From positions 1 through 35,189 of the IMG/VR virus record IMGVR_UViG_3300003635_000013: a stretch of 35,189 bases of DNA. One strand, given 5' to 3'. Position 1 is the first letter of the stretch. Every line of letters begins with the position of its first letter. The translations under genes were made by a program, and so were the position numbers. A model generated the notes under the pieces. It had not been told where the DNA came from. It ran no database searches and saw only the letters and a list, made by a program, of their open reading frames with translations. This DNA is from a virus. Below, one piece after another: positions 1,098-25,092 of the stretch.

Positions 1098-1123
1098 TCT
1101 CGCCACACCGCAACCTTAAAAGG
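1098..1123 (+). promoter_or_regulatory. Virus-type promoter 1 (TCTCG-N7-GCAAC-TATA)
   Basis: TCTCG at 1098, GCAAC at 1110 and CTTAAAAG following. It lies 50-75 bases before the gene at 1174 and faces away from the leftward promoter. One of eleven copies of the element. Confidence 0.75.
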
Positions 1124-1173
1124 TACTCGCACTAAATCTATAGATACGTGACAAAGAATCACAGGGGTTTACT

Positions 1174-1815
1174 ATGCAGCTACAGAACTCACATAAGCAG
1201 CTTATTGATGGACTAATTGTTGCAAACGCATCCGTTACGCAGAGCGAGGTGCAGCTACAACTCACAGACAAGGAAGAAGCACAGTACATCTACAGACTCA
1301 TTAAGCCTATCGCAGAGTCCCGTCGCTTGGAGCAGGCCAACCAAACAGCACTGAGTCGTGACTGGTACGTGAAGAACGACGAACAGAACAACACTGACGA
1401 ACTTCGTACAGAACGACACCACTCTCAAGTCTACACTGTCGTCTTTGAGCCTTCGAAAGAGGTTCTACAACGTGCCTCACACTGGCTTGAGCGCGATACA
1501 GACGACGAAGACGTGATTACACTCGTCTCACCAGATGACTTCGAGCTAACACAAACTGCTGCAAAGATTATCTATCTCGTTGCTGTTGAAGAACGCATCA
1601 ACGACGATGGACGGCCACTGGAGTTTACCACACAGGCTCCTGATGAGGCTGTCAGTGAGGCTCTCTCGGATGTTGGAATCAAGTCGGAGTCAGTCAACGG
1701 ACTCTTTCGCCTCCGTCCTGACGATGCTGCACACTTCCGAGAGTACGCTTGTGTCAGCGACAACCCCACGAGCGAGTTGAACAACGAGGTGCATCCAGAT
1801 GCCACAACAAATTAA
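1174..1815 (+). CDS. Hypothetical acidic protein (213 aa)
   Basis: 213 residues, acidic, no membrane segment. The first 50 residues (QLIDGLIVANASVTQSEVQL and on) are helical and could be a DNA-binding or protein-contact segment; the C-terminal third, with FRLRPDDAAHFREYA, looks globular. I do not recognise a family. First gene behind virus-type promoter 1, and its end overlaps the start of a ribbon-helix-helix-like gene by 17 bases, so the two are probably translated together. Accessory or early function is inferred only from position. Confidence 0.75.
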   Translation: MQLQNSHKQLIDGLIVANASVTQSEVQLQLTDKEEAQYIYRLIKPIAESRRLEQANQTALSRDWYVKNDEQNNTDELRTERHHSQVYTVVFEPSKEVLQRASHWLERDTDDEDVITLVSPDDFELTQTAAKIIYLVAVEERINDDGRPLEFTTQAPDEAVSEALSDVGIKSESVNGLFRLRPDDAAHFREYACVSDNPTSELNNEVHPDATTN

Positions 1816-1981
1816 TGTCAGTCTCAGAACACGACGCAAGCTGGATATGATTAAACGAGAAGTGTTTGGTGACGAGCCAACAGAAATGAGTGACGAAACA
1901 CTTCTCGCTTTAATGACTGAAGAAGTACTTGAAGAAGAGACTATCCTTGATGGGAGTGAACACAGTGCCGCCCAACAGTGA
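1799..1981 (+). CDS. Ribbon-helix-helix-like small regulator
   Basis: 60 residues. INVSLRTRRKLDMIKREVFG followed by a second helix (MSDETLLALMTEEVLEEE) has the strand-helix-helix layout of Arc/CopG-type DNA-binding proteins. Its start lies inside the preceding gene, with GAGGTG upstream, and its end overlaps the next gene by about 30 bases. One of at least three such proteins in the window (also at 2825 and 6833). Candidate binder of the repeated promoter or dispersed motifs, by inference only. Confidence 0.65.
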   Translation: MPQQINVSLRTRRKLDMIKREVFGDEPTEMSDETLLALMTEEVLEEETILDGSEHSAAQQ

Positions 1982-2270
1982 CAGCAACGCAGACAGCAAC
2001 AGCACGCTTCCCGAGGACGAGCGAATGCGCCCTGAACAGAAAGATGAACTCACTTCGAACGCCGCGACACGTTGGGAATGGTTGGCGACTGCTGTTGTTG
2101 CGGCGACTGTGTTCACTTTCCTTCTCATAGTCTCGCTTGCAGTTCTCGGAGTTGTGACACTTTCCTCACTACCGCAGGCGTGGTTCATCCTCTTTGGAAG
2201 CGTTGTTGCTGGTTCATACGCATACGCAATTGGAAAAGAGTATGTCAACTGGCGAGGGAAGCGCGGCTGA
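1950..2270 (+). CDS. Small two-helix membrane protein
   Basis: 106 residues from the ATG at 1950; a TTG at 1929 is possible. An acidic N-terminal third (about 40 residues) is followed by two hydrophobic stretches, WLATAVVAATVFTFLLIVSL and a second from AWFILFGSVVAGSYAYAIG, ending in a basic tail (WRGKRG). This topology is compatible with a holin-like or other viral membrane protein, but no family motif is visible. Overlaps the previous small regulator gene. Confidence 0.65.
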   Translation: MGVNTVPPNSDSNADSNSTLPEDERMRPEQKDELTSNAATRWEWLATAVVAATVFTFLLIVSLAVLGVVTLSSLPQAWFILFGSVVAGSYAYAIGKEYVNWRGKRG

Positions 2271-2286
2271 TTATAGGTTATATCTA

Positions 2287-2311
2287 TCTCGATGCGCCGC
2301 AATCGTTATAG
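2287..2311 (+). promoter_or_regulatory. Virus-type promoter 2
   Basis: TCTCG 2287-2291, N7, GCAAT 2299-2303, then GTTATAG. Drives the 34-residue zinc protein at 2346. Confidence 0.7.
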
Positions 2312-2345
2312 TGGTGTCACTCCTACAATAGTATCCCGTGATACT

Positions 2346-2450
2346 ATGAGTGAGTACTTTGATGAATGCCCGATGTGCGATTCTCCGAACATTGTAATGC
2401 AGGAAGGCTGTATGCTGTGTCAAACCTGTGGCTTTTCTCCGTGCGGATAA
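2346..2450 (+). CDS. Tiny zinc-ribbon protein (34 aa)
   Basis: 34 residues containing CPMC near the N terminus and CMLCQTCGFSPCG at the C terminus. The EGCxxCxxCG(F/Y)SxCG form is like the C-terminal zinc ribbon of vitamin B12-dependent ribonucleotide reductases, but here it stands alone. It has its own virus-type promoter and the next promoter starts on the base after its stop codon, so it is a single-gene unit. A peptide this short with six cysteines is very likely a folded zinc knuckle; its partner is unknown. Confidence 0.7.
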   Translation: MSEYFDECPMCDSPNIVMQEGCMLCQTCGFSPCG

Positions 2451-2474
2451 TCTCGATGTAGGGCAAGTTTTAAG
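2451..2474 (+). promoter_or_regulatory. Virus-type promoter 3 (for the tRNA)
   Basis: TCTCG 2451-2455, N7, GCAAG 2463-2467, TTTTAAG. No ORF follows before the tRNA at 2648, so this promoter appears to drive the tRNA, with a long 5' leader. Confidence 0.65.
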
Positions 2475-2647
2475 AGGTATAGGCTATAAGATATAGGTAC
2501 ACTGGACGAGGCTTACGGCTACTTCGATTCACTCCAAAATTGAATACAGAACGCTCCCGTGGGCCAACTATTGCCAGTGTGTGTGTGTGTGTTTCGCGGA
2601 TTCCATAGCATCAGTAAGTTTTGGCCCCCCATACGGGGGTTCTTCGT

Positions 2648-2719
2648 GGGCCAATAGCTCAGTGGCAGAGCATCTGTTTTGCAGGCAGAGAGCCGCCGGT
2701 TCGAGTCCGGCTTGGTCCA
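2648..2719 (+). tRNA. tRNA-Ala (anticodon TGC)
   Basis: A full 72-base cloverleaf: acceptor GGGCCAA / TTGGTCC, D arm GCTC-AGTGGCA-GAGC, anticodon arm TCTGT / GCAGA with loop TTTGCAG (anticodon TGC), five-base variable loop, T arm GCCGG-TTCGAGT-CCGGC and discriminator A. It has the G3:U70 wobble pair that specifies alanine. CCA is not encoded. GCA is visibly the favourite Ala codon in the large virion genes, so the tRNA may support viral codon use. Confidence 0.95.
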
Positions 2720-2766
2720 TCACTTTTTCTTTTGCGCGTGCGCGTGTGTTGGTAGATAGTTACATC

Positions 2767-2791
2767 TCTCGGTACACCCCAACCTTTAAGT
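2767..2791 (+). promoter_or_regulatory. Virus-type promoter 4
   Basis: TCTCG 2767-2771, N7, CCAAC 2779-2783, CTTTAAGT. About 35 bases before the ribbon-helix-helix gene at 2825; drives the operon to 4186. Confidence 0.75.
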
Positions 2792-2824
2792 AATAGTAGC
2801 CATAACTATGTACTGTGAAGAACG

Positions 2825-2992
2825 ATGACAGAGACTAAGGAATTTACAAACGTCAACGTTATCCCTTCCACTCGTAACGCAGTGAACGAGCTTAAGGGAG
2901 AGCTATTCAAGACGGACAGTGCAACACAGAACGATGTTATTGAAGAGCTTATTCGACAGGCTGGCTACTCGGAGGTGCTTGACGATGAGTGA
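2825..2992 (+). CDS. Ribbon-helix-helix protein (55 aa)
   Basis: 55 residues: TNVNVIPSTRNAVNELKGEL then SATQNDVIEELIRQAGYSEV. A short strand, helix, turn with S/T-x-N-D-V-I and second helix is the CopG/Arc pattern. First gene of the operon behind promoter 4; its last eight bases overlap the next start (ATGAGTGA). Likely a dimeric DNA-binding regulator, possibly of its own promoter; the target is not shown by the sequence. Confidence 0.7.
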   Translation: MTETKEFTNVNVIPSTRNAVNELKGELFKTDSATQNDVIEELIRQAGYSEVLDDE

Positions 2993-3371
2993 ACACACAG
3001 AGCAAGCGACGGTAGAGCTGACGACAGAGCAAGCGAAGCGATTCAACGAGCTTGCAGATGAGATTGCCCCCTACGGGACTGCGGCTCCAGAAGACGTTGT
3101 TGAGTACTTGCTGGACTATCACGACGGTGAGCTAAAGGAGTCGATGATTCTCGACTCTGCTGGCCCTCGGCCAACTACTGAAGCTTCTGGAAGTGGTTCT
3201 GGAGACGTAAATGGTGGGGGTGATGCTTCCACGAGTGCAGAAAGCCCGGCTAACGAAGGACTGACACCAGAGGAGAAGGCAGAAAAATTTCGACGGGACG
3301 ACGACGGGGCGACTGAAGAAAGTGTGGCAGAGCTTGACTCGGACGAACTCAGCGCACGAGTCGGAGAATGA
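2985..3371 (+). CDS. Acidic protein with RHH-like N terminus (128 aa)
   Basis: 128 residues starting MSEHTEQATVELTTEQ. The first 55 residues resemble a strand-helix-helix unit (VELTTEQAKRFNELADEI, then APEDVVEYLLDYHDG). The rest is a low-complexity Gly/Ser/Asp/Glu linker (GSGSGDVNGGGDAST) and an acidic C-terminal tail. GGAGGTG lies ten bases before the start; the 8-base overlap with the preceding gene implies translational coupling. The start also contains a GTGAACACA motif (2989-2997). Function unknown. Confidence 0.7.
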   Translation: MSEHTEQATVELTTEQAKRFNELADEIAPYGTAAPEDVVEYLLDYHDGELKESMILDSAGPRPTTEASGSGSGDVNGGGDASTSAESPANEGLTPEEKAEKFRRDDDGATEESVAELDSDELSARVGE

Positions 3372-3399
3372 CAACTAACTGAAATGAGGTGTGTACACT

Positions 3400-3759
3400 A
3401 TGGGAATACTCTTTAACTCAGACGAGGACGACAGGACGGTTGAACAACTGCTGGACGACGATGCAACAATCGAGGCGAAAGGTGACAACGGCCAAGTAGT
3501 CAGTACACCACGGAAGGTGGCGATTACGTTCGACGGCGTGCTTGAGTCGATGCAAAATATCGGTGAGGGTGACGTGACGCTGTTCTATGATTCCATCAGG
3601 GGAATTGAGTTCAAGAAGAGCGGCACGTTCCGTCGCGGTTACATCGAGTTGCAACAGAGCGGCGACGAGAACGTGACAATCAAGTTCCAGAAGAACCGCA
3701 ACCCTGACTTTGAGCAAGTAAAGGAGCTTATCGAAGCGCGAATGGCTGCACATCGGTAG
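3400..3759 (+). CDS. PH-like domain protein (119 aa)
   Basis: 119 residues from the ATG at 3400, which follows GAGGTG; a GTG at 3391 is less likely. After an acidic first 45 residues, the segment VTLFYDSIRGIEFKKSGTFR continuing to GYIELQQSGDE and then FEQVKELIEARM matches the seven-strand-plus-helix layout of bacterial short PH domains (DUF4429/SHOCT-neighbour type, from memory). Such domains bind proteins or membranes. It sits directly before the ERCC4 nuclease gene (4-base gap), so the two may act together. Confidence 0.65.
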   Translation: MGILFNSDEDDRTVEQLLDDDATIEAKGDNGQVVSTPRKVAITFDGVLESMQNIGEGDVTLFYDSIRGIEFKKSGTFRRGYIELQQSGDENVTIKFQKNRNPDFEQVKELIEARMAAHR

Positions 3760-3763
3760 GACA

Positions 3764-4588: not shown

Positions 4589-4613
4589 TCTCGCTGTGGC
4601 GCAAGACTTAAGT
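4589..4613 (+). promoter_or_regulatory. Virus-type promoter 5, no obvious gene
   Basis: TCTCG 4589-4593, N7, GCAAG 4601-4605, ACTTAAGT. The only ORF at the expected start is 12 codons (ATG 4627). An oligo-T stretch (4789-4803) could end a transcript of about 170 bases, so a small or antisense RNA is possible. Confidence 0.65.
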
Positions 4614-4630
4614 AAGGGTACTACCTATGA

Positions 4631-4775
4631 CTAAGTGGCCTCACTGCCGGAGGCTGCTTGCTTAAGCCGTTCGCGTTGCTCGTCTGGAGTTAGCGTCTGT
4701 CTATCGGTTGACTGTCTGCCATTCACCGTCACCGTCCTCGGCACAGTTTTGCTCACCGTTGCCGGATTGTGACAT
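4631..4775 (-). pseudogene. Small acidic gene broken by a frameshift
   Basis: From ATG 4775 the minus strand reads MSQSGNGEQNCAEDGDGEWQ and stops after 24 codons at a CGA-TAG. Removing one C near 4707 (AACCGAT to AACGAT) joins this to a second acidic segment, RQTLTPDEQRERLKQAASG, ending at 4631. Together they make a typical small haloviral protein of about 47 residues. Promoter 5 points into it from its 3' side. It may be a dead gene beside the origin region or a sequencing error. Confidence 0.4.
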
Positions 4776-4879: not shown

Positions 4880-4904
4880 TCTCGTCCACAGGCAACAGTT
4901 AAGT
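4880..4904 (+). promoter_or_regulatory. Virus-type promoter 6
   Basis: TCTCG 4880-4884, N7, GCAAC 4892-4896, AGTTAAGT. The TATA centre is about 27 bases before the ATG at 4928, which fits a leaderless mRNA for the truncated HNH-type gene. Confidence 0.7.
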
Positions 4905-4927
4905 GAATGCCTCTCGTACAAGCAGGT

Positions 4928-5200
4928 ATGAGCTTATCAGACTGGAAACGGCAGACGTGCAGCAGGTGTGATGCAGTGCTTGGATTAACTGCTCACTCAG
5001 TTGACATTGCGATATACTGCGACGACTGCGAGCCACTTTCGATTGATGACGATACTCGAAGGTATGGGCCTGCATACGACAGGGCGAGAAAAATTGTCAT
5101 CGAACGAGATAACCACTCGTGTCAGGGAAGATACCTGTACCCGATTTCGACAATTGACGAACCTTCATTTCAAGTGGAGATTCTTAACCAACAGTTTTAA
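4928..5200 (+). pseudogene. Truncated HNH-type gene running into origin repeats
   Basis: An ORF of 90 codons starting MSLSDWKRQTCSRCD at the ATG that suits promoter 6; an upstream ATG at 4907 is too close to the TATA box. It has a CSRC ... CDDC zinc pair and then YDRARKIVIERDNHSCQ, the usual opening of haloarchaeal HNH endonucleases (RDNxxCQxCG). After SCQ the similarity stops: the remaining codons translate the origin repeat (5145-5193), so the HNH core is missing. Most likely a gene cut off by a rearrangement. Whether the short zinc domain is still made is unknown. Confidence 0.6.
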
Positions 5201-5260
5201 CCAACAACCCATTTTCGACAATCGTACAACCCCTGTTTCAAGTGGAAGTTCTTAACCAAC
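5145..5260 (+). repeat. Left ORB-like direct repeat pair
   Basis: Two direct copies, 5145-5193 and 5213-5260, each running TTTCGACAAT ... TTTCAAGTGGA ... TTCTTAACCAAC. The second has the fuller CCCCTGTTTCAAGTGGAAG core. The first overlaps the 3' end of the truncated HNH gene. Confidence 0.8.
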
Positions 5261-5319
5261 ACTGCGAGCCTCTCCCCTCGACAGTTGGGGAAGCCGTCAG
5301 TGTCGCTCCATAGCTGCTG

Positions 5320-5383
5320 TCGATTCTAAGCAGGCTCACAGCCGTTCTCAGAGCGTTCACAGTAACCCGAGAGGCACGCATCC
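5320..5383 (+). repeat. R element, copy 1
   Basis: Begins CGATTCTAAGC then CTCACAGCCGTTCTCAGAGC, ending GGCACGCATCCT. It is the shortest member of a five-copy family (also 5891, 6074, 6151 and 24864), with a short hairpin CGTTC-TCA-GAGCG. Confidence 0.75.
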
Positions 5384-5480
5384 TGTAAAAATAACTCCGC
5401 TTAGAACGGCGCTCAGAAGCTTGTGAGAGAACTGCTGTTTGGGGGACTATTGAGAGTCTCGTCGCGGAAGTGTCAACTGT

Positions 5481-5504
5481 CTGTAAAAAAATAACAGTAA
5501 AAAG
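5481..5504 (+). repeat. 24-base inverted repeat partner of 24776-24799
   Basis: CTGTAAAAAAATAACAG and the next seven bases are the exact reverse complement of 24776-24799. This A-rich tract opens the AT-rich part of the origin region. Confidence 0.85.
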
Positions 5505-5890
5505 AATATAATTGGTAAAGGGGTTTTGTGAAGTACCTTTGTAGAGTAGCTATTAGTGTCTACTGTGCTGTCTACACTATCAGTACCTCTTTATACTGTA
5601 CTGTATTGTCCATATACTGTCTGTAGTGCTGTTGCGGTGCTGTGAACTGTAGGCTGTCTGTGTTCACCCCCTATAGGGTATATACTCTATACAAAGTATA
5701 TCTATACTTGCCTTAGCACCGCCTCTACGGTTATTCAAGGAAGGTACTTTTTCAACCCCCCGTAGGGTATATACTTGAACAACAAATAGATTCTCAGCCA
5801 ACGACGGAGTTTTGAGAGCTTGCTCTGAGGGCCGCTGAGAGCTTGCTCAGAGCTTGCTCTCTCGAATCGGGGGAGCGTCAGCATCAGCAG
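5505..5890. other. AT-rich, gene-free part of the origin region
   Basis: No gene seen. 5550-5630 is dense in ACTGT/ACAGT pentamers. 5668-5704 holds CCCCCTATAGGGTATATAC and then CTATACAAAGTATATC, which recurs in altered form at 24718-24776. CCCCCCGTAGGGTATATAC recurs near 5754. 5810-5870 repeats GAGAGCTTGCTC, able to form several hairpins. Confidence 0.55.
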
Positions 5891-6010
5891 TTCGATTCTA
5901 AGCCGCCTCACAGCCGTTCTGAGAGCGTTGACAGTCTGCCGAGGGGGAAGCATCCTCTTTGCTCATCAAAAAGCTCTGAGCGCCTCTCAGCGGCTCACAG
6001 TACTGGCGGC
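5891..6010 (+). repeat. R element, copy 2 (long form)
   Basis: Starts TCGATTCTAAGCCGCCTCAC and extends about 120 bases to GGCTCACAGTACTGGCGGC. Contains two short hairpins, CGTTC-TGA-GAGCG and CTGAG-CGCCT-CTCAG. Closest in length to the copy at 24864. Confidence 0.8.
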
Positions 6011-6073
6011 ATATTACTGTCGATATGGGCTGACTGCGAGAACTGGTGGGGCGCTTACAGCACAGCGCGATTC

Positions 6074-6227
6074 TGAGCAGCCTCACAGCCGTTCTGAGAG
6101 CGTTCAGAGGCTTCCGAGAGGCACACATCCTCTTGCCTGAGAAATCGCTCTGAGCAGCCTCACAGCCGTTCTGAGAGCGTTCAGAGGCTTCCGAGAGGCA
6201 CACATCCTCTTGCCTGAGAAATCGCTC
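6074..6227 (+). repeat. R elements 3 and 4, perfect 77-bp tandem
   Basis: 6074-6150 and 6151-6227 are identical by eye, each starting TGAGCAGCCTCACAGCC and ending GAAATCGCTC. A recent tandem duplication inside the R family, or actively kept identical. Confidence 0.85.
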
Positions 6228-6267
6228 TGAGCATTGCTACTGAGGCGCTGCTTAGAGGACAACGATT

Positions 6268-6384
6268 TAGACAATTGTCGAAGTGTTGGATAAGAATGTT
6301 GGTTAAGAGTGTTGGTTAAGAATCTCCACTTGAAACAGGGGTTCGTCAGTTGTCGAAATGATGTTCGTCAATTGTCGAAATGAT
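6268..6384 (-). repeat. Right ORB-like cluster with tandem 13- and 22-bp repeats
   Basis: Inverted relative to the left pair. Contains three 13-bp units, TGTTGG(T/A)TAAGA(A/G), at 6284, 6297 and 6310; the core CCACTTGAAACAGGGG (6326-6341); and two 22-bp units beginning GTTCGTCA(G/A)TTGTCGAAA at 6341 and 6363. Confidence 0.85.
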
Positions 6385-6768: not shown

Positions 6769-6793
6769 TCTCGCACTACCCCAAGCTTTATGT
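6769..6793 (+). promoter_or_regulatory. Virus-type promoter 7
   Basis: TCTCG 6769-6773, N7, CCAAG 6781-6785, CTTTATGT. Lies about 45 bases before the ATG at 6833 and should drive the block of small genes to 9270. Confidence 0.75.
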
Positions 6794-6832
6794 ACACCTG
6801 AGTCACAAGTTATAAGTAGAGGAAGGACAGTT

Positions 6833-7123
6833 ATGTCGAATGACACAGAGTACACGACGGTAGCTCTGACTCCCGAGGACAAAGCACGCCTCGATAGAAT
6901 CAAGGCTACCTATTTAGACGACGACGCGGCATCATACCGCGAAGTAATTAACTTCCTCGCTGACGAAGTTGAAAATTACGCTGACGAGTATGAGGCGGTA
7001 CTTGCACGAGCAATCATTCGAGCAAGTGATGATGATATGCAGCGTGTGCGCGAGCGCGTGCGTAACGATACACAGTTTGTTGAGCGTGTGGCTTCGCAGC
7101 GAGACGACGAACAAGAGGAATAA
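6833..7123 (+). CDS. Ribbon-helix-helix-like protein (96 aa)
   Basis: 96 residues from the ATG at 6833. YTTVALTPEDKARLDRIKA then ASYREVINFLADEV matches a CopG-type strand and two helices (about residues 7-45); the remaining half is a charged helix ending in an acidic tail. First gene behind promoter 7, two bases before the next gene. It could control the following structural genes; no target is shown. Confidence 0.65.
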   Translation: MSNDTEYTTVALTPEDKARLDRIKATYLDDDAASYREVINFLADEVENYADEYEAVLARAIIRASDDDMQRVRERVRNDTQFVERVASQRDDEQEE

Positions 7124-8627: not shown

Positions 8628-8936
8628 ATGCAACTACGAACTGGACATACAGAATTTATCGAAGCAGAAGTTGAACAGCTACTCGACAATGCAGCAGTCG
8701 AAGAAACACACGCAGTTTATGCGTCTGAAGATGTTGACAATGCAACAGAAGACGTATACATCCATCGAAACGCTTACGACGCACTTAAATCACATCCCGG
8801 CGGGCGGATTCAAGTTGAGACACTCGATGGACCGCGACACATCTGCGACGAGTGTGGATTTGTTGCTGAAAGTGGTGCAGGACTTGCAGCACACGAACGC
8901 TCCCACGAGGAACTGGAGGTGGCTGGAGATGAGTGA
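8628..8936 (+). CDS. Protein with C-terminal C2H2 zinc finger (102 aa)
   Basis: 102 residues. The first 70 are a mixed alpha/beta region; residues 73-94 hold a clear finger, CDECGFVAESGAGLAAHERSH (C-x2-C-x12-H-x4-H spacing). The stop overlaps the next start by 8 bases in the recurrent ATGAGTGA arrangement, within a GTGAACACA motif. Possible DNA-binding or adaptor protein made with the packaging genes. Confidence 0.7.
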   Translation: MQLRTGHTEFIEAEVEQLLDNAAVEETHAVYASEDVDNATEDVYIHRNAYDALKSHPGGRIQVETLDGPRHICDECGFVAESGAGLAAHERSHEELEVAGDE

Positions 8937-9270
8937 ACACACCTGCCCCTGTGGGTTCGAGACAGACACCCCACAAGGACTCGGAGCGCACCAGCGCCAC
9001 TGTGACGAGTATCAAGCCCTTCAGGAAGAGGACGAGGGCGGTGACGAAGAGGACGAGCCTGTGTTCACTCACGAAGAGGAAGAGGCATACGAACGCGATA
9101 ACGGAGCCTGCCGACGATGTGGTGCAGATGGCGACGTTGTACACCGATTTCGTGACAATGACGACAGCCTTCCAAATCTCGTAACACTTTGTGAAGGCTG
9201 CGAAAGCCTTATTGAAGGGAAAAACCCCCATACCAAGCGCACACAAGTTGACTTCACAGACGACGAATAA
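8929..9270 (+). CDS. Zinc finger fused to a degenerate HNH domain
   Basis: 113 residues from the ATG at 8929. Residues 1-25 form a finger (CPCGFETDTPQGLGAHQRHC). After an acidic linker, residues 55-100 read YERDNGACRRCGADGDVVHR and LPNLVTLCEGCESL, the C-x2-C ... H ... NLVTLC-x2-C frame of HNH nucleases. The second His of the HH pair is Arg and the final metal-binding His after CxxC is not in place, so catalysis is doubtful. HNH proteins beside the terminase are needed for cos cleavage in HK97-like phages; here the position fits, the active site less so. Confidence 0.7.
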   Translation: MSEHTCPCGFETDTPQGLGAHQRHCDEYQALQEEDEGGDEEDEPVFTHEEEEAYERDNGACRRCGADGDVVHRFRDNDDSLPNLVTLCEGCESLIEGKNPHTKRTQVDFTDDE

Positions 9271-9278
9271 GCATAGCA

Positions 9279-9303
9279 TCTCGCCACGGCGCAACACTTA
9301 AGT
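9279..9303 (+). promoter_or_regulatory. Virus-type promoter 8 (packaging operon)
   Basis: TCTCG 9279-9283, N7, GCAAC 9291-9295, ACTTAAGT. About 45 bases before the 34-codon zinc-finger gene that leads into the terminase genes. Confidence 0.78.
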
Positions 9304-9343
9304 AAGCGTAGGTGGGAATTATAAGATAGACACGGTTACTGCT

Positions 9344-9448
9344 ATGCCATTTGTTCAGTGCAGTGCTTGTGATGCAATTTTCAAGCACGACGAAAAACTT
9401 GAACAGCACAAACGAACGTGTTCCGAAATTGAAGATAACGAGGATTAA
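9344..9448 (+). CDS. Tiny zinc-finger protein (34 aa)
   Basis: 34 residues: MPFVQCSACDAIFKHDEKLE then QHKRTC and an acidic tail. C-x2-C with H-x4-C makes a complete single finger. First gene after promoter 8 and three bases before the small terminase gene. Its place at the head of the packaging operon suggests it is made together with the terminase; role unknown. Confidence 0.72.
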   Translation: MPFVQCSACDAIFKHDEKLEQHKRTCSEIEDNED

Positions 9449-13294: not shown

Positions 13295-13687
13295 ATGACG
13301 ACACAACTTTACAACAACGGAGAACTTGCAGTACTCGACGGAGGACTCGGCTCGCGTTCTGTTGACTTTGGACTATACAATGATTCAACAGACGCACTCT
13401 CGGACAGTGCAACGTATGCTGACATTACGACGGAGCCGAGCGGGGCTTCGTACTCAGTGCAGACTGCATCTGGCGGAAGTGTTGCGCTCAACGGTTCGAA
13501 TGATGGAGAAATTACATACTCGGACCAGACATTCGACGTAAGCGATTCTTCGGAGAGCGTTGATGCAGCATATGTACGTGATTCGAGTACAGGAGACTTG
13601 CTCTTTGCAGTCTCACTGGACCAAACGTATGACTTGTCCTCTGTTGATGAGTTCGTTCTCTCGAACACGTCACTGAACCTCGACTAA
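13295..13687 (+). CDS. Virion protein, fibre-cassette partner (copy 1)
   Basis: 130 residues, Ser/Asp/Thr-rich and beta. Paralogous over its full length to the protein at 16041: both start MT(T/R)QL(Y/F)(N/D)NGE, share GLYNDSTD, SATYA(D/S)ITTEP(S/T)GA, the ...FDVSDSS... block and YVRD.. then GDLLFA, and end in .LD. Good GAGGTGA site. Sits directly before a beta-propeller fibre gene in both copies, so it may be that fibre's attachment or chaperone part. Confidence 0.78.
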   Translation: MTTQLYNNGELAVLDGGLGSRSVDFGLYNDSTDALSDSATYADITTEPSGASYSVQTASGGSVALNGSNDGEITYSDQTFDVSDSSESVDAAYVRDSSTGDLLFAVSLDQTYDLSSVDEFVLSNTSLNLD

Positions 13688-15948: not shown

Positions 15949-15973
15949 TCTCGATGCACAGCAACACTTAAGT
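15949..15973 (+). promoter_or_regulatory. Virus-type promoter 9, between the two fibre cassettes
   Basis: TCTCG 15949-15953, N7, GCAAC 15961-15965, ACTTAAGT. It starts 26 bases after fibre 1 ends and precedes cassette 2, so the second receptor-binding set can be expressed on its own. Confidence 0.78.
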
Positions 15974-16040
15974 ACGAGGAACTGGAACAATCACATAAGC
16001 GTTCCGGTTCTGCGTATAACCAAACTTAGAGAGGATAACA

Positions 16041-16433
16041 ATGACTCGACAACTATTTGACAATGGCGAGACGTTCACACTTCAGAATGACTTGTCTGGT
16101 GTAACGTTTGAGATTGGACTGTACAACGATTCGACTGATTCACTAACTGATAGTGCAACGTATGCAAGTATTACCACTGAACCAACTGGTGCTGCATACG
16201 CAGCACAGACACAGAGTACGACAACGATTCAGCTTGATGGGAACAGCGACGGTGAACTCGTTCTGGACCCAGTAACGTTCGACGTGTCGGACTCATCTGC
16301 GACAGTTGACTCGGTGTACGTCCGTGATAATGCGTCCGGTGACTTGCTCTTTGCCAACGACATTGGCTCACAAGACTTGTCCACGAAGGACGGCCAACTC
16401 GAAGTCTCGAACGTTGGATTTACGCTGGACTAA
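16041..16433 (+). CDS. Virion protein, fibre-cassette partner (copy 2)
   Basis: 130 residues, the same length as its paralogue at 13295 and alignable throughout (GLYNDSTDSLTDSATYASIT, FDVSDSSATVDSVYVRDNAS, GDLLFA). GAGGATAAC precedes the ATG. The pair and the downstream propeller genes show that a two-gene unit was duplicated in tandem and has since diverged. Confidence 0.78.
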   Translation: MTRQLFDNGETFTLQNDLSGVTFEIGLYNDSTDSLTDSATYASITTEPTGAAYAAQTQSTTTIQLDGNSDGELVLDPVTFDVSDSSATVDSVYVRDNASGDLLFANDIGSQDLSTKDGQLEVSNVGFTLD

Positions 16434-16745: not shown

Positions 16746-18581
16746 ATGGTAGATTACGTTTCCATCACTGACGACGCCCTGCGTGTTCTGGACCCGTCTG
16801 ATGGTTCAGAGATTCGTAGCTACAGCCAAAATGTTGTTACTGGCCAGAACTCTGACGTTGACGACAATGGAAAGTTCTATTTCCGGCAGTTCGACTTTGG
16901 TGGTAACTTTGAACAGGGATTCGCAAGAATACCGAACGACTTGTCAGCGACAGATTGGGTTAATCAAACAGAACGCAGCAACAACTGTATTCGTAGCTAC
17001 CCGAACGGTGAAGTGGTTGTCTGTAACGACGACAACTACGTAGAGATGGTTAATGCTGATGGGACAGAAAAGTGGGCCACCGATATTTCTGCAACAAATG
17101 CGAGTATTCTTACAGCACGGGGTGCGTGTCTGTCAAATGATAGGACTGCTGTGTATGTCGTTGGTGATGGGCGTATTGTAGAAGAATTTGACGCAAGTAA
17201 TGGCTCATATGTAACTACACACAACCTTGAAGCTGTTGCTCAATTTGATAAATCCGATATTGTCCAAGATAAAAACGGTGACTTCTATATTGCGACTATT
17301 GATGGACAAATTCAAAAACACGACAGTAGTTACAACAATATTTGGCTATATAACCCATCGTGGGGAATTGGAGACGCGAATTACCAAATGGCACTCGGTA
17401 TGTCAGACAGTCACGTTTCTGTTGCCGGAGACTCTGGTGTTTCGAAAGTTGCACACGACGGAACAGTAGCGTGGGAGCAATCAACATCTGATTCTGGAAA
17501 TCAGACAGCAATTGGACAAAACGGCGCTGTCTACGCTGCATTTGACGACAGTACGTTCAAAAAGTTTGCATCGTCAGATGGAACTGAGCAGTGGAGTGTG
17601 GCAACAAACGCAGGAGATACTGGCGTCACAGCATTCCCACAGTGGAACCAATATCCTGACGCTTGGGGGCCATCTGTTGCACAAGTAACAGCAACACAGA
17701 TTGCGGCTGCTGCTGGTGTCAGTGTTGGAACAGTTTCAGAACTGTTATCAGCAACACAAGTACAGTCTGCCGCCACGATGGAGAGTCCAACGTTGCTTGA
17801 GGTGCTGGCTGCTGCTCAAGCAAGTTCCACAGCTACGATGGAGCAGGTAAGTCTGCTTGAGCTTATTAGCTCCACACAGGTACAATCCTCTGCCGGGGTG
17901 AACACAGCCGCCCTTCTGGAGTTCGCTCAAGCAACGCAGCCCGCTGCGGCGGCGCGTGTGTTTACTGCTGATACAGCCTTCCGTGTTAGCTTGACAGCAA
18001 CTCAGTTCGCTGCCACAAGCTCTATGGGCGTACCCAAGCTCAAAGAGTTCACACAAGCCGCTCAGAGTGACGTGAGTGCGACGACACTACAGGCTGCTGC
18101 AACACCCTCGGTAGCAATTGCAGCAGCACAGGTAGCTGCTCAGAGCGATATGAACGACGTGAGTCTGAATGTAGTGCTGCAAGCTGTGCAAGCGTCGGCG
18201 GCTACGTCGATGAATACGATTCCCGGCCTTAATGAAGCACTCGAAGCAGCACAGACTGATGCACAGGCAACAGTGAATGATGTACTCATTGACACTGTAA
18301 TCGTTGATGCAGCACAGGCAACCGCAGCAGCAACGATGCTTGAGGGAGTCACGATTGAAGACGTGACGGCACTCGCTCAGGCAACCAGCGCAACTGCAAC
18401 GAGTAACACAGATGTTCGTGGGCGCTTCATTGGGACAGCAACCCCCACCTCTGGCGTCGTTGTCATCCCGATTAGAGCGCGATTTAATCCACGAAGAGTT
18501 GACGTTGCTGAAACAGGTGACGAAGAAGAGAACGACGCCGAGCTAACCAGTGGCCGTAACAACTGGGTGAGTAATGACTAA
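16746..18581 (+). CDS. Beta-propeller receptor-binding fibre (copy 2, 611 aa)
   Basis: 611 residues. Residues 1-300 are propeller blades like copy 1 (MVDYVSITDDALRVLDPSDG, VNADGTEKWATDI, VVGDGRIVEEFDASNG, YAAFDDSTFKKFASSDGTEQ). Residues about 310-560 are eleven or so tandem units of 20-21 residues of the form (A/T)Q-x-x-(A/S)AATM-x-x-x-x-LLE-x-x-x-A, for example ATQVQSAATMESPTLLEVLA and AAQASSTATMEQVSLLELIS. This regular shaft differs completely from copy 1. Its stop shares one base with the next start. Confidence 0.8.
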   Translation: MVDYVSITDDALRVLDPSDGSEIRSYSQNVVTGQNSDVDDNGKFYFRQFDFGGNFEQGFARIPNDLSATDWVNQTERSNNCIRSYPNGEVVVCNDDNYVEMVNADGTEKWATDISATNASILTARGACLSNDRTAVYVVGDGRIVEEFDASNGSYVTTHNLEAVAQFDKSDIVQDKNGDFYIATIDGQIQKHDSSYNNIWLYNPSWGIGDANYQMALGMSDSHVSVAGDSGVSKVAHDGTVAWEQSTSDSGNQTAIGQNGAVYAAFDDSTFKKFASSDGTEQWSVATNAGDTGVTAFPQWNQYPDAWGPSVAQVTATQIAAAAGVSVGTVSELLSATQVQSAATMESPTLLEVLAAAQASSTATMEQVSLLELISSTQVQSSAGVNTAALLEFAQATQPAAAARVFTADTAFRVSLTATQFAATSSMGVPKLKEFTQAAQSDVSATTLQAAATPSVAIAAAQVAAQSDMNDVSLNVVLQAVQASAATSMNTIPGLNEALEAAQTDAQATVNDVLIDTVIVDAAQATAAATMLEGVTIEDVTALAQATSATATSNTDVRGRFIGTATPTSGVVVIPIRARFNPRRVDVAETGDEEENDAELTSGRNNWVSND

Positions 18582-18913
18582 TGACACAAACGTTCTACAT
18601 TGAAGAAGGTGACAGAAGCCCGTCTATCTCAGCAAAGCTAACTGACGAAGATGACAATGCGATTGACTTGTCGAGTGCGTCAGTTGACTTCATTATGCGA
18701 GAACCACGAGGCGGTGAACTAATTGTCAACGATGATGCAAATGTCGTTGACGGTGCAAATGGAGAAGTAGAATATCAGTGGAGTGAAACAGCAACAGAAC
18801 AGGACGGGCGGTTCCGTGCTGAGTTTGTTGTCAATTACGCTGATGGAACACAGGAAAGCTTCCCGAACGTCGGGTATCACACCGTGTTCATCACTCGTTC
18901 ACTGGCAAACTAA
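18581..18913 (+). CDS. Baseplate upper protein-like Ig domain (110 aa)
   Basis: 110 residues. MTQTFYIEEGDRSPSISAKL, then the strand DFIMREPRGGELIVNDDANV, then RFRAEFVVNYADGTQESFPN and a final HTVFI strand. This is the N-terminal Ig-like domain of phage BppU proteins, which links receptor-binding proteins to the baseplate or virion. It follows fibre 2 with a TAATG overlap, so cassette 2 looks like partner, small protein, fibre and adaptor. Related in pattern to the protein at 7126. Confidence 0.8.
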   Translation: MTQTFYIEEGDRSPSISAKLTDEDDNAIDLSSASVDFIMREPRGGELIVNDDANVVDGANGEVEYQWSETATEQDGRFRAEFVVNYADGTQESFPNVGYHTVFITRSLAN

Positions 18914-18938
18914 TCTCGATACAGCACAACATTTAAGT
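18914..18938 (+). promoter_or_regulatory. Virus-type promoter 10 (head genes)
   Basis: TCTCG 18914-18918, N7, ACAAC 18926-18930, ATTTAAGT. It begins right after the previous stop; the TATA centre is about 23 bases from the ATG at 18956, which fits a leaderless protease mRNA. Confidence 0.78.
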
Positions 18939-18955
18939 AGGATGGGTTATAATTT

Positions 18956-20872
18956 ATGAGTGACGATAAAGCTTTCGATTTTGCATTGTGCAGTAGCAGT
19001 ACAGACGCTTCCTCGACAACGATGGATACGATTCAAACGCAAGCAGGTGTCGCAACCTGCACATCTGGCATTGATAGTTCTCCACTAACAGTTAGTGGTG
19101 TCGCTATCTCTGCCGGTGAAATTACACGACACGAAGACGGGAATCGGCGCTGGCCTGAGCCACAGCTTATGGCAGCAGTAGATTCGCTTGAAGGGAAGCA
19201 CTTGACGAAGAATCACAACCACGACGCTGTTGAAGGTGTCGTTGGTGAAGTAACAAAGACGCGCTATAAAGAGGGCGTTGGTATTCTTTTCGAAGCACAA
19301 GTGTATGACGAGGAAGTAGCACTGAAGATTCAGGAAGGACTTCTCGATGTGTCAGTACACGCTGCACACAAAGTATCACACATTGACGACGACGGCAATT
19401 ACGTTGTCGAGAACGTTCGATTCCGTGACTTGTCTGTTGTTCCGAGAGGCGCAGCAGATGGAAACACAGTCTCGCCGGGTGCGCTCCAAGTGAGTGAACT
19501 CTCGGAAGACTCAGTTGCGGAACTTGTCGAGGATGAGTTTACTGAAGACACGATGACATATCGTGAAGCACTTAACGAGACAGCAGACAACTTTGATATT
19601 ACTCTGGCAGAACACGAACTCGATAGTGTCTACTCAGAGTGGCAAGATACTGTCAATATGACTGCCGGACAACTCCGACAGTGGAGTGAGAATCCGTGTA
19701 GTCGTGAAGCAAGCGTCCGTCCATCGTTCGTTATCCGTCGCAACCTTCGGCTACTTGAAAAACCGAAGAGTGAATGGACACAGAACGATGTTGAGGATGC
19801 ACGGCGCACTATTTCGTTCATCAACCGGATGAGCGCACAGCGTCCGACTGCACCTCGTGATGGGCCGAATGGTTGTCCGAGTCCGTGGGCAATTAGCCTG
19901 ATGAACTGGGCATACAATCCGTTTGATGAACTTCCATCTGTTCCAGAAGAGATGGAGCCTGTCGAGGAAATTACAGCAAAGGTTGCTGAAGCGGTACAGT
20001 CTTTCGAGGGTGACTCGGAGACACATATGCCGCAGTACGAATCGACGGAATCTGGCGACGGGTGGGACGCACCGAATCTGGAAGACTTCCCCGTTGAGTA
20101 CTTTGATGAAGATGATACTCCACGGTGGGACTTGATTGACAACCACTTCCTGTACTCGGAGACTGGCTTCCCGCCTGAAAACTACACGGACCTTGGGTTC
20201 CCGGTTGTGGACCCTGACGGTACATTGTGGCTTGCTGCACTGCGTGCAGTGAAGTCCCGTGCGCCACAGTCTGATGCTCCTGAAGCTGCTGTCGAGCGGC
20301 TACAGGAAATGGCTGACACACTTGCCGCACGGGAGTTCGACAAGGACTGGAGTGACGATGCTGAGAGCGATGACGGCTCGGAAGAGGAAATGGGCCAGAG
20401 TTCCTCGGCTGACACTTCTGATACTGACGAAACAAATCAAGGTGAAATTATGACTGAAGAAACTGAAACAGAAGAGTCTCAGGACGTTGACGAGCTTGAA
20501 GAGCGCGTCAGCGAGCTTGAGGCAGAGAACGAGCGTCTCCGTGACGAGGTAGAATCCGTTCGGATGGAGTATGCAACTGCCCTTGCGGGCGACTCTGCGT
20601 TCTCCGCCGAGGAACTCTCGGAGAAGTTCACAGTTGATGAGCTTGCAGAAAAGTACGATGACGCTGACGAGGTTGCACTTGCAGAAGCAGCTTCGGAGCC
20701 TGCACCGCAGACTGGCGGTGTAGAGGACGAGGTTGAGGCATCGGAGACTGATGAGGAAACTGATGCAGAAGTTGCAGAACTCGAACAGCGCATCGAAACG
20801 TATGAAGATATGGGTTGGGACGCTGCCGCTTCTGAACAGCGTGAGCGTCTTGACGAACTCACAGCAGAGTAG
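18956..20872 (+). CDS. Prohead protease with scaffold-like C terminus
   Basis: 638 residues. Residues 45-170 are an HK97-type (U35) prohead protease: KHLTKNHNHDAVEGVVGEV (H87/H89), LLDVSVHAAH (S133) and SVVPRGAA (161-167), with the usual His-Ser spacing of about 46. The middle (195-470) has an unassigned region including MTAGQLRQWSENPCSREAS and GCPSPWAISLMNWAYNP. The C-terminal 150 residues are acidic and coiled-coil (DVDELEERVSELEAENERLR), as in scaffold proteins. The protease processes the scaffold, so this is a protease-scaffold fusion. Starts at the position expected for a leaderless mRNA. Confidence 0.85.
   Translation: MSDDKAFDFALCSSSTDASSTTMDTIQTQAGVATCTSGIDSSPLTVSGVAISAGEITRHEDGNRRWPEPQLMAAVDSLEGKHLTKNHNHDAVEGVVGEVTKTRYKEGVGILFEAQVYDEEVALKIQEGLLDVSVHAAHKVSHIDDDGNYVVENVRFRDLSVVPRGAADGNTVSPGALQVSELSEDSVAELVEDEFTEDTMTYREALNETADNFDITLAEHELDSVYSEWQDTVNMTAGQLRQWSENPCSREASVRPSFVIRRNLRLLEKPKSEWTQNDVEDARRTISFINRMSAQRPTAPRDGPNGCPSPWAISLMNWAYNPFDELPSVPEEMEPVEEITAKVAEAVQSFEGDSETHMPQYESTESGDGWDAPNLEDFPVEYFDEDDTPRWDLIDNHFLYSETGFPPENYTDLGFPVVDPDGTLWLAALRAVKSRAPQSDAPEAAVERLQEMADTLAAREFDKDWSDDAESDDGSEEEMGQSSSADTSDTDETNQGEIMTEETETEESQDVDELEERVSELEAENERLRDEVESVRMEYATALAGDSAFSAEELSEKFTVDELAEKYDDADEVALAEAASEPAPQTGGVEDEVEASETDEETDAEVAELEQRIETYEDMGWDAAASEQRERLDELTAE
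20450..20872 (+). CDS. Candidate nested scaffold protein (in-frame internal start)
   Basis: An in-frame ATG (codon 499 of the protease gene) is preceded by GGTGA at 20441-20445 with four bases between, as good as the real starts nearby. It would give 140 residues: an acidic lead, the coiled coil DELEERVSELEAENERLRDE and a helical C terminus. Lambda makes scaffold Nu3 from inside its protease gene C in the same way. Needed here because the capsid protein has no scaffold-like delta domain. Inferred from the ribosome site and family parallel. Confidence 0.55.
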   Translation: MTEETETEESQDVDELEERVSELEAENERLRDEVESVRMEYATALAGDSAFSAEELSEKFTVDELAEKYDDADEVALAEAASEPAPQTGGVEDEVEASETDEETDAEVAELEQRIETYEDMGWDAAASEQRERLDELTAE

Positions 20873-22116: not shown

Positions 22117-22120
22117 TACA

Positions 22121-22468: not shown

Positions 22469-22851
22469 AAGATACCCTATCACGGACAATGAACACAGCG
22501 CGGCGTGTGTTCGACAGCTTCACCTCACAGGTGACAGTTGTTCAGTATACATACGACGACACTGCTGGTAGTAACGAGTACGCTGATGGGGACTGGGTTG
22601 AAAGCAACGAACTTGCTGAAGCAACTATCCGCGAGGCATCTGATGATTACACGAAGGATGCTGCTGGTTCCGACACAGAGTACGATGTGAACGTGTTTGT
22701 GGACCCATCCGAGGTGACGGTTACACTCGGCCAAGGTGACAATGAACGCGCCACAGAGTTCGTAGAAGACTCTACAGGACGAACCTATAAGGCTGTTGCA
22801 ATCTATGATGAATCGTCTCTGTACCGAGTTGCGTGTGTGGAGGTAGAATAA
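22465..22851 (+). CDS. Head closure / head-tail joining protein
   Basis: 128 residues with a GGAGGAGGT ribosome site inside the previous gene. After a helical start (MKDTLSRTMNTARRVFDSFT) it is mainly beta: QVTVVQYTYDDTAGSNEYAD, NVFVDPSEVTVTLGQGDNER, FVEDSTGRTYKAVAIYDESS, compatible with gp16/FII-type stopper proteins that plug the connector after packaging. Assigned mostly by gene order. Confidence 0.7.
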   Translation: MKDTLSRTMNTARRVFDSFTSQVTVVQYTYDDTAGSNEYADGDWVESNELAEATIREASDDYTKDAAGSDTEYDVNVFVDPSEVTVTLGQGDNERATEFVEDSTGRTYKAVAIYDESSLYRVACVEVE

Positions 22852-23333
22852 TGGTACGTCAAATTGATGACATTCGCCTGCTGGTTCGAAACCTTCTCAG
22901 GACAGAGTGGGACAACAGTTCACTTGTTATCTCACTATCTGATACTGATATTCATACTGGCTGGTACGATGATGGCAAGGGCTACCCGCAAGTCACCGTT
23001 ACCAATCCAGAAGAAGGTATCTTAGCAGGCGGTGAATCCGGTGTGACAGGCATCAAAGGTTCCGGTGATGGGTACGTCCAGCATCGCAATGGAACCGTTT
23101 TGGTGAACTGTTGGGCCGGTTCTCGTGCCGACTATGACGCAGCAGGTGAAGTCGAACTTCAAGCACAAGCAATGGGTGATGAAGTCGATGATATACTGTA
23201 CGAGAATATCCACGCACTCTCCGGTGTAGATTCAATCACTGTCACGAGCCGTTCTCGGATTGTTGACACTGATGAAGAACCATCGGAGTACCGTGTTCAA
23301 CTCGAACTAACATTTAACTGGACAAAAGATTAA
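22851..23333 (+). CDS. Tail terminator / tail completion protein
   Basis: 160 residues from the ATG at 22851, sharing one base with the previous stop (TAATG) and preceded by GGAGGT. Layout: N-terminal helix (IDDIRLLVRNLLRTEWDNSS), strand YPQVTVTNPEE, then strands and a helix (VELQAQAMGDEVDDILYENI) and a final strand YRVQLELTFNW. This is the order expected of gpU/gp17-type tail terminators, which cap the tail tube. Family by layout and position. Confidence 0.72.
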   Translation: MVRQIDDIRLLVRNLLRTEWDNSSLVISLSDTDIHTGWYDDGKGYPQVTVTNPEEGILAGGESGVTGIKGSGDGYVQHRNGTVLVNCWAGSRADYDAAGEVELQAQAMGDEVDDILYENIHALSGVDSITVTSRSRIVDTDEEPSEYRVQLELTFNWTKD

Positions 23334-23350
23334 TATAGAGGTTTACAATT

Positions 23351-24550
23351 ATGGCAAATCAAGCTACACAGGCTGACAGTGGGATTACGAACCACCGTGT
23401 AGAGTTCGTTCGAGAGACTTCCGTTTGTGAAACACCATCGGACCCGTCGTGGAACGTATTCTCGGACAATCTCGACACGGCACTCATTGTTAGCTCTGAC
23501 GCACAAGTTGAATCGCAGCGCGGAGTCGGTGACGTGAACGTCCAGAACTTCTTTGCTGGTCCAGAGGACCACACTGCAAGTATCGACTATCACTTGCAGA
23601 AGTTCTTCGTTGATGGGAGCGGAAACCCCCTCGACGCATCTGGTGACGCAATCGTCCGTGGCTCTGATAACGAAGTACCGAACACTCACACTGTCGTTGA
23701 CAGAGTGGACCACGGTGACACGAGAGTGTACCGCGTCCTGAAGGGTGGCTATCCGAACATCGGTGACGTTTCCGGGGACCCGTCCTCGGGAATGCCGATT
23801 ATGCTCTCGCTTGAGTACGAGGCAAAGAAGATTCGCTCGTACAAGCTAAACCAGCCTGACGGAACGACACTCACCGTCAAGTCCACTGACTCGTCCGACA
23901 CGTCTCCGTCTGTCTACTTTGAATCTGACAATGCAAACACTACTGACGACGTGCAGCTTAACGGAACGACTGAAGTAACCACAACCGAAAGCTTCTCCAG
24001 CCTCGACGCTGTAGAGCTTGACGCTGAGACAACTGGCGACGTTGTTGTTACTGACGGCTCCGGTAACGACATTATCACCATCCGTGGTGCAGACTACTAC
24101 GATGGTGTCGAGGGAGACTTGGGGATTCCCCGACTCGGTTCCGGTTCCCACGCTGGTTCCATCGGCTCCAGCTACGAAATCTTCCTTGACGACGACGTTA
24201 CCCGTGGCGGAAACAGTCTTGCCGCAGAAATTCGCTCCGCTTCCTTTAGCGTGAGCAACAACTACGACAAGACTGGTGTTGCTGGTACGAAGCAACAGGC
24301 TATCCACGAGGGTGTACAAGACGTTGAGCTTTCGGCAACTGTTGCCGGTGACTTCGAGGAACACTCGTCTATCGAGGAACACCTCGCAGCCAAGGAACTT
24401 GACGTTGTGTGGACGCTCTCCGGTGGGACAGTTACCCTTTCGGGTGCTGCACTCACTGACTTGGGTGACGTAGGCCCATCTGCTGGTGACGTTATCTCTA
24501 CACAGGAGAACACGTTCACCGCTGGTGACGTGTCTGTGTCGAGTAACTAA
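23351..24550 (+). CDS. Major tail tube protein
   Basis: 399 residues, larger than most tube proteins. The first part (HRVEFVRETSVCETPSDPSW, GRGVGDVNVQ-like VESQRGVGDVNVQNFFAGPE) and last part (AAEIRSASFSVSNNYDKTGV, GVQDVELSATVAGDFEEHSS) fit the beta-barrel of tail tube proteins; residues about 165-260 (TLTVKSTDSSDTSPSVYFES and on) look like an inserted Ig-like surface domain. GAGGT precedes the start. Position between tail terminator and chaperones is canonical. Followed by a T-rich terminator. Confidence 0.83.
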   Translation: MANQATQADSGITNHRVEFVRETSVCETPSDPSWNVFSDNLDTALIVSSDAQVESQRGVGDVNVQNFFAGPEDHTASIDYHLQKFFVDGSGNPLDASGDAIVRGSDNEVPNTHTVVDRVDHGDTRVYRVLKGGYPNIGDVSGDPSSGMPIMLSLEYEAKKIRSYKLNQPDGTTLTVKSTDSSDTSPSVYFESDNANTTDDVQLNGTTEVTTTESFSSLDAVELDAETTGDVVVTDGSGNDIITIRGADYYDGVEGDLGIPRLGSGSHAGSIGSSYEIFLDDDVTRGGNSLAAEIRSASFSVSNNYDKTGVAGTKQQAIHEGVQDVELSATVAGDFEEHSSIEEHLAAKELDVVWTLSGGTVTLSGAALTDLGDVGPSAGDVISTQENTFTAGDVSVSSN

Positions 24551-24585
24551 CGACACTTGACTCGGATTATTGAACATCCGTAAAC

Positions 24586-24600
24586 TTTTTATTCTTTTTG
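24586..24600 (+). terminator. Oligo-T terminator after the tail tube gene
   Basis: CTTTTTATTCTTTTTG with two T5 runs, ending the head-tail transcript. The GTGAACACACGCG motif follows directly at 24603, as at 4807. Confidence 0.6.
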
Positions 24601-24775
24601 TGGTGAACACACGCGCCCCCTTAGCAGCAGCACCACACAGCCAGACTACCACTTTACCTTCTGTAGACTTCTCTTTAACAATATATTGTGCTGTACTTGT
24701 AGAGGAGGAGTGTGTTTACCCCCTATAGTATAGTGTATTCAACAAGGAGCTTCAGATACACTCTACAAAGTATAT

Positions 24776-24799
24776 CTTTTTACTGTTATTTTTTTACAG
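24776..24799 (-). repeat. 24-base inverted repeat partner of 5481-5504
   Basis: CTTTTTACTGTTATTTTTTT followed by ACAG is the exact reverse complement of 5481-5504. Its T7 run could also end transcription on the plus strand. Confidence 0.85.
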
Positions 24800-24863
24800 A
24801 AGTTTGACAAGACGCCTGTTCCCATCTCGACTGAGCTATCCGAGCTTCCCCAACAAGCGACAG

Positions 24864-24980
24864 TCGATTCTAAGCAGCCTCACAGCTTCGCTCAGAGCGT
24901 CCACAGTCTGGCGAGGGGTATGTATCCTCTTGCCTCAGAAATCGCTCTGAGCGCTGCTCAGCGGCTCACAGTATGCCGCC
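24864..24980 (+). repeat. R element, copy 5 (long form)
   Basis: TCGATTCTAAGCAGCCTCAC through GCGGCTCACAGTATGCCGCC, aligned along its whole length with 5891-6010. The hairpin CTGAGC-GCT-GCTCAG replaces CTGAG-CGCCT-CTCAG; stem sequences are kept while loops differ. Confidence 0.8.
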
Positions 24981-25020
24981 ACTTCTGCAACCCACCCGGC
25001 AGGTGTGAAGTACCCTTGGG

Positions 25021-25092
25021 TGACGGTAAACTTTATAAATGTCCAGTTTTACCGAAACCTATAACTATCTCGGGTTGACGCAACCTTTATAA
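25021..25092 (+). promoter_or_regulatory. Tail-gene promoters, including virus-type promoter 11
   Basis: TCTCG 25068-25072, N7, GCAAC 25080-25084, CTTTATAA. About 55 bases upstream lies a conventional-looking TATA (AAACTTTATAAATG, 25028-25041), and CCGAAACC precedes the TCTCG element. Drives the tail operon starting at 25167. Confidence 0.72.

Follow-up and report, generated by a model that had tools for sequence, protein, structure and literature searches.

The window and its genes

The stretch of DNA analyzed here (hereafter the window) is IMG/VR virus record IMGVR_UViG_3300003635_000013, positions 1 to 35,189, that is, 35,189 bases. Its gene order is that of a tailed halovirus: terS, terL, portal, major capsid, tape measure and tail genes run rightward, and a short arm runs leftward. 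Our subject is a bipartite element, TCTCG followed at a fixed distance by a CAA-containing block and a TATA-like sequence, which occurs eleven times in the window and appears to mark a class of viral promoters. Noncoding DNA makes up 13.6% of the window, and none of the eleven sites overlaps a predicted gene even though 86% of the window is coding.

The terminase large subunit (TerL) is 38% identical to that of Halorubrum virus CGphi46 and the tape measure protein 40% identical to that of Hardycor1. No close relatives were found in IMG/VR, including by TerL peptide, or among deposited phages. Alignments of TerL and the major capsid protein defined a clade of about 10 syntenic tailed haloviruses and proviruses, in which the major capsid protein is 50-60% identical. 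Its members are G001 (33.5 kb), the provirus contig G002:C28 of Natronosalvus hydrolyticus AArc-curdl1, and G393 to G399. Several of these genomes are partial, and absence of a site from a partial relative means little.

Eleven rightward sites share a fixed geometry

An earlier note on this DNA had listed eleven rightward TCTCG sites, and all of them (11/11 on the plus strand) were confirmed (Table 1). The TTAA or TTTA that it placed after each CAA block is present at most sites, but at the fixed register site 1098 reads TAAA, and 2287, 6769 and 25068 read TTAT. The sites do generally precede gene starts or the tRNA, except that no convincing gene follows 4589.

Spacing sets these sites apart from background. 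TCTCG-N7-NCAA has 11 matches on the plus strand, compared with 0-3 at each other spacing from 0 to 30, and TCTCG followed by TTWA occurs almost only at the neighbouring spacings 13 and 14 (6 and 7 plus-strand matches, respectively; 0-3 elsewhere). In the comparison with shuffled sequence that the earlier note had suggested, TCTCG-N8-CAA had 12 matches over both strands versus 1.8 expected from dinucleotide shuffles, and 0 of 100 shuffles reached 12. The twelfth match (5109, minus strand) lies inside coding DNA. With a 28-bp matrix the eleven sites scored 23-34 bits, followed by 17.8 for the leftward promoter at 1085 and at most 10.5 for the remainder of the window; leave-one-out with this matrix recovered every site. 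Unguided enumeration of 5+4 gapped words, which takes no account of the TATA part and is a weak test for that reason, ranked the motif joint second after GTGAACACA. The latter 9-mer (GTGAACACA/TGTGTTCAC) is the commonest gapped word counted on the plus strand. It has 16 copies in the window (e.g., 1956, 4211, 4807, 6495 and 24603), some of which (4807 and 24603) share a longer context.

The prevailing letters in the window are TCTCG, CGCAA and TTTAAGT. TCTCG is invariant in 11/11 sites, and the adjoining seven bases are nearly free. All sites have T.A at bases 19-21. The earlier note had overlooked two further positions: all eleven sites have A at base 38, and 9/11 have T at base 47. We predict that transcription starts near base 48, which would put the TATA (centred near base 21), A38 and T47 at about -27, -10 and -1. 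The haloarchaeal core promoter has a TTWT-type TATA, a CGAAA transcription factor B recognition element (BRE) and WW at -10 (PMC4983044). With the TATA predicted at about -27 and WW at -10/-11, the sites would fit this published layout in the positions of BRE, TATA and -10/-11; they differ from it in a BRE with an invariant C, which replaces the middle A in 11/11 sites, and in an extra YCTCR box one turn upstream. For the CAA block, which the earlier note took to stand in place of the BRE, the best reading is a haloarchaeal BRE of the ordinary CGAAA kind in which one A has invariably become C (CGCAA); at this place relatives have mostly GAA. The distance from box to BRE is 7 in every window site and 6 or 7 in relatives, a fixed distance as expected of an activator-dependent promoter.

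Individual sites add detail. Site 2 (22.5 bits) scores highest in the window when the matrix comes from other viruses only. Site 3 lies ~200 bases upstream of tRNA-Ala (2647-2721). Site 5 possibly yields a non-coding RNA. At site 6 the ATG of the downstream gene falls exactly at base 48, which fits a leaderless transcript. Site 10 starts one base past the stop codon of gene 18581-18913, and a canonical CCGAAACC-TATAA lies 15 bases upstream of site 11. Site 9 precedes the second of two paralogues (13295-13687 and 16041-16433; 52% identical) that are a single gene in relatives; the TCTCG promoter is found only at the second.

As the earlier note had reported, leftward promoters have a normal BRE: those at 1085 and 34976 carry CGAAA and lack TCTCG. 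Its separation of leftward from rightward expression holds in the window, where the sites divide 11:0 and noncoding canonical GAAA-type promoters number four leftward and one rightward, but not in G399, which has high-scoring sites on both strands.

Table 1. Putative promoters and candidate regulators in the window
Feature	Coordinates	Strand	Context
Promoter site 1	1098..1146	+	TCTCG-ccacacc-GCAAC-ct-TAAA; before gene 1174-1815; putative promoter, start predicted near base 48
Promoter site 2	2287..2335	+	Before 34-aa zinc-ribbon open reading frame 2346-2450
Promoter site 3	2451..2499	+	Starts one base past stop codon of 2346-2450; tRNA-Ala downstream
Promoter site 4	2767..2815	+	Before ribbon-helix-helix (RHH)-like gene 2825-2992
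Promoter site 5	4589..4637	+	No clear gene downstream; 17.4 bits (matrix of other viruses)
Promoter site 6	4880..4928	+	Before gene 4928-5200; 13.6 bits (matrix of other viruses)
Promoter site 7	6769..6817	+	Before RHH-like gene 6833-7123; G395 counterpart precedes RHH2 homologue
Promoter site 8	9279..9327	+	Before C2H2 zinc-finger gene 9344-9448 and terS; counterparts in G001, G002 provirus, G393, G394, G399
Promoter site 9	15949..15997	+	Before g16041; counterparts in G001, G002 provirus, G393, G394, G395, G396, G398
Promoter site 10	18914..18962	+	Before gene 18956-20872 (ATG at base 42); counterpart in G399
Promoter site 11	25068..25116	+	Before g25167 and tape-measure gene; counterpart in G394
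Leftward canonical-BRE promoter	1045..1085	-	CCGAAACCTTTAAG; for HNH-type gene 568-1011
Second leftward canonical promoter	34935..34976	-	CCGAAACCTTTAAG; downstream sequence near-identical
Candidate regulator, 155 aa, two winged-helix-like halves	34131..34598	-	Homologues in G001, G393, G394, G395, G399 and the G002 genome; fold sub-threshold
Second candidate, 34-aa C2H2 zinc-finger protein	9344..9448	+	Directly behind site 8; homologues in several relatives
Third candidate, RHH-like protein	6833..7123	+	Behind site 7; assigned by reading, no Pfam family reached
Candidate, RHH-like protein	2825..2992	+	Behind site 4; assigned by reading, no Pfam family reached

Diverged forms precede the same genes in related viruses

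Eight relatives carry diverged forms of the element in which the geometry is kept, YCT[C/G/A]-N6/7-N[G/C]AAN-NN-T[A/T]A, with an invariant A 17 bases further on that was not used for finding sites. Their letters are YCTCA or YCTAN, mostly AGAAK, and TGTAAY, so that the BRE is purine-rich and the TATA poor; what stays constant is the spacing. The box is kept among viruses that are ~40% identical in TerL. G001 has four sites, all rightward (YCT[C/G]R-N7-NGAAN-TG-TAA[T/G]), which score 30-36 bits with the next match at 10.4, and the Natronosalvus provirus has three rightward sites with the same parts at N6. In G393, G394, G396 and G398, a fixed pattern found sites before terS and/or the g16041 homologue.

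The choice of sites in relatives began from patterns modelled on the window. Three lines of evidence are largely independent of that choice: conservation at bases 35-38, controls without matches, and recovery when each virus was left out in turn. Across the 13 relatives' sites, C35, T37 and A38 were kept in 13/13, 12/13 and 13/13, respectively, though they lie outside the search pattern. A matrix built from these 13 sites, and thus blind to the window, gave 29 matches over 294 kb from the clade, the window included (some sites being counted under both spacings), and 0 in a reversed-sequence control, while in other loci it gave 3 matches in 1.25 Mb (control 4). Leave-one-virus-out analysis placed sites above the control maximum in the window, G001, the G002 provirus, G393, G394, G395, G396 and G399; none exceeded it in G398, and G397 had marginal matches only. 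A further control on 2.07 kb of orthologous upstream DNA yielded 8 matches at gap 7 versus 0-2 at other gaps.

Several sites share their downstream genes with relatives. Counterparts precede the terS region (window 9279) in five relatives and g16041 (15949) in seven, G395 having the lower score, and single relatives share g18956 (18914), g25167 (25068) and RHH2 (6769), as listed in Table 1. With matching downstream genes, the late promoters look ancestral to the clade, within which the window has the most copies. G399 and L132 have a variant of their own (CTACCC...GGCACAAGAGTAAAG-like), copies of which are closely spaced or opposing (L133 14018 and 14288, both minus strand; L132 2130 and 2202).

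The element is absent from sampled hosts and unrelated viruses

A scan of host genomes, also suggested in the earlier note, did not overturn its proposal of a virus-specific promoter class: TCTCGN7SCAASNNTTWAGT had 0 matches in 391 haloarchaeal genomes versus six in the 35-kb window. The relatives' form had 0 matches in 145 haloarchaeal genomes. These absences cover sampled genomes, and the window's true host may belong to an unsampled lineage. No sites were found in the stretches examined of the nearest named haloviruses, CGphi46, ChaoS9, HATV-3 and Hardycor1. Absent from hosts and unrelated haloviruses, and present in diverged form before the same genes of related viruses, the proposed class is well supported.

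Matches elsewhere in IMG/VR were rejected as chance. The exact consensus gave nine, all representing one conserved site common to prophage-like contigs from isolate genomes, and a looser consensus gave 27 stretches with single matches and no second strong site.

Candidate regulators

The most likely reader of the box, offered as a lead, would be the product of 34131-34598. A winged-helix-like gene of this kind was found in every clade member with its left arm available, and in relatives the homologue adjoins the same leftward neighbours (g33436-like and g001_2994-like genes). We prefer it because it is leftward, keeps these neighbours and has two putative DNA-binding halves, which would suit an asymmetric site. 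Structure models of this protein and of the product of 1174-1815 were too poor for structure search. The HNH-type gene 568-1011 was rejected as a regulator: its product is an HTH-HNH protein of homing-endonuclease-like type, related to proteins of many haloviruses.

Two observations concern similar genes. The winged-helix-like gene has two adjoining homologues on another Natronosalvus contig (G002:C20:9604-10574), which may be the remainder of the provirus or a second provirus. In the window, gene 8929-9268 combines a C2H2 finger with an HNH-like zinc part and several relatives keep it immediately before their terS-region promoter.

Other features of the window

In the noncoding region 5140-6360, stretches 5144-5206 and 6297-6359 form long inverted repeats (89% complementary), and a 77-base repeat occurs four times (5325, 5897, 6072 and 6149); the region is possibly a replication origin or recombination region. 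Both ends of the window (1-368 and 34828-35189) hold the same genes in nearly the same sequence, differing in a ~130-base promoter segment with CCACCCTTTATAAG at the start and CCGAAACCTTTAAG at the end. The genome may be circularly permuted and its assembly drawn from two strains; alternatively, a tandem duplication may have had its promoter swapped.

Comparison with known promoter systems

The literature searched turned up no virus-specific promoter family conserved clade-wide by geometry rather than sequence. In phage T4, the middle promoters use a box for the viral activator MotA in place of a good host core element, and this box is repeated along the viral genome. MotA belongs to a bacterial sigma-factor system, and we note the likeness to the window sites without a claim of homology.

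The closest parallels described for tailed haloviruses are the class I and class II intergenic repeats of HF2 (PMC8707807). Like the window sites they are multi-copy, virus-specific and intergenic, and those of HF2 have been tested as promoters; they also have a TATA at about -26 and a conserved block upstream of BRE and TATA. Their position is kept among members of one genus, and viral regulators have been proposed for them (PMC8707807). However, HF2 repeats consist of 29-58 bp of near-identical sequence, whereas here short boxes stand at fixed spacing and their letters vary from virus to virus. Of the two HF2 classes, I is early/middle and II is late, whereas here one class serves both kinds of gene. 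The class I gamma motif (CGTCTNNTAGAG) and beta-motif TCTTTAAGTC were not found in the eleven aligned sites, 2767 alone having CTTTAAGT, and the class II CCCTTTAC core (with three AT motifs separated by C runs) was in no site. The GvpE-dependent gas-vesicle promoters of haloarchaea likewise have a site directly upstream of BRE and TATA, a 20-nt upstream activating sequence (PMC8241225). Here the site is short, asymmetric, multi-copy and viral, and no GvpE homologue was identified in the window.

How the sites may be read

Judging from sequence and its conservation, we think it fairly probable that the sites are clade-specific, activator-dependent viral promoters with an off-consensus BRE and TATA and a viral protein bound one turn upstream. 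More broadly, the virus probably turns its genes on with a protein of its own. One promoter class would drive nearly all rightward units (delayed-early, tRNA and late structural). Host RNA polymerase, TBP and TFB would initiate, assisted by a viral protein on the YCTCR box one helical turn upstream of the BRE, most likely the tandem winged-helix-like product of 34131-34598. The BRE CGCAA in place of CGAAA, together with the relatives' TATA TGTAAY, suggests that these promoters need such help, and since the leftward promoters have a canonical BRE, an order of early-left, then-right would follow. Only tentatively do we extend this to a master activator of the clade. The tandem winged-helix protein might bind the asymmetric YCTCR box and contact TFB, with promoters of weak BRE and TATA firing only in infected cells; activator and box may have co-evolved, giving each virus a private promoter alphabet at a common spacing.

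Several observations weigh against activator-dependent promoters. Mutating the upstream (alpha) motif and the BRE of HF2 did not abolish activity in uninfected Haloferax (PMC8707807), so a motif in that position is not necessarily an activator site. The ATG behind 18914 is at base 42, six bases before the predicted start, and start codons at base 23-24 likewise precede the predicted start at G001 11856 and at 3025 of the G002 provirus; these three sites would have to be internal promoters serving the next genes only. Winged-helix matches of 34131-34598 were sub-threshold (MarR chain, E=0.044; HxlR, E=0.09), and its single-sequence structure model was poor, with a predicted local distance difference test score (pLDDT) of 42.

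We consider it unlikely that the box is the operator of a virus repressor, with rightward promoters shut in the provirus and open in lytic growth, like the asymmetric operators that recur in some temperate phages. In its favour, a provirus-like contig from a Natronosalvus genome is among the relatives, and the box adjoins the BRE, where a bound protein could block TFB. Yet a blocker needs no single exact spacing or orientation to the TATA, and both are kept across viruses; an off-consensus BRE and TATA suit activation better than repression, and no integrase was recognised among the window genes scanned. It also seems improbable that a particular host TFB/TBP pair reads the whole array with no viral factor, the C of CGCAA being a TFB-specific letter. 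Haloarchaea carry several TFBs, and the altered letter does sit in the BRE, but no sampled host uses either form of the motif (0/391 and 0/145 genomes, although the window's own host may be unsampled), and the letters differ among related viruses while the spacing is kept. Between the two readers named in the earlier note, a viral factor or a particular host TFB, the host TFB alone is thus less likely.

Very improbable, in our judgment, is a reading of the sites as strong promoters of the ordinary kind in which the upstream box, though conserved, can be dispensed with, being a leftover or an element of DNA shape comparable to the alpha motif in HF2 class I repeats. The HF2 intergenic repeats were all active without viral proteins, with the alpha motif dispensable in a reporter (PMC8707807). 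Here, however, TCTCG is invariant in every window site beside seven nearly free bases, and the box has persisted among viruses as distant as their TerL identity indicates.

How tailed archaeal viruses time their genes on eukaryote-like TBP/TFB machinery is poorly known. With sites defined both in the window and in relatives, a predicted start and a short candidate list, the question of a viral activator becomes testable with reporters.

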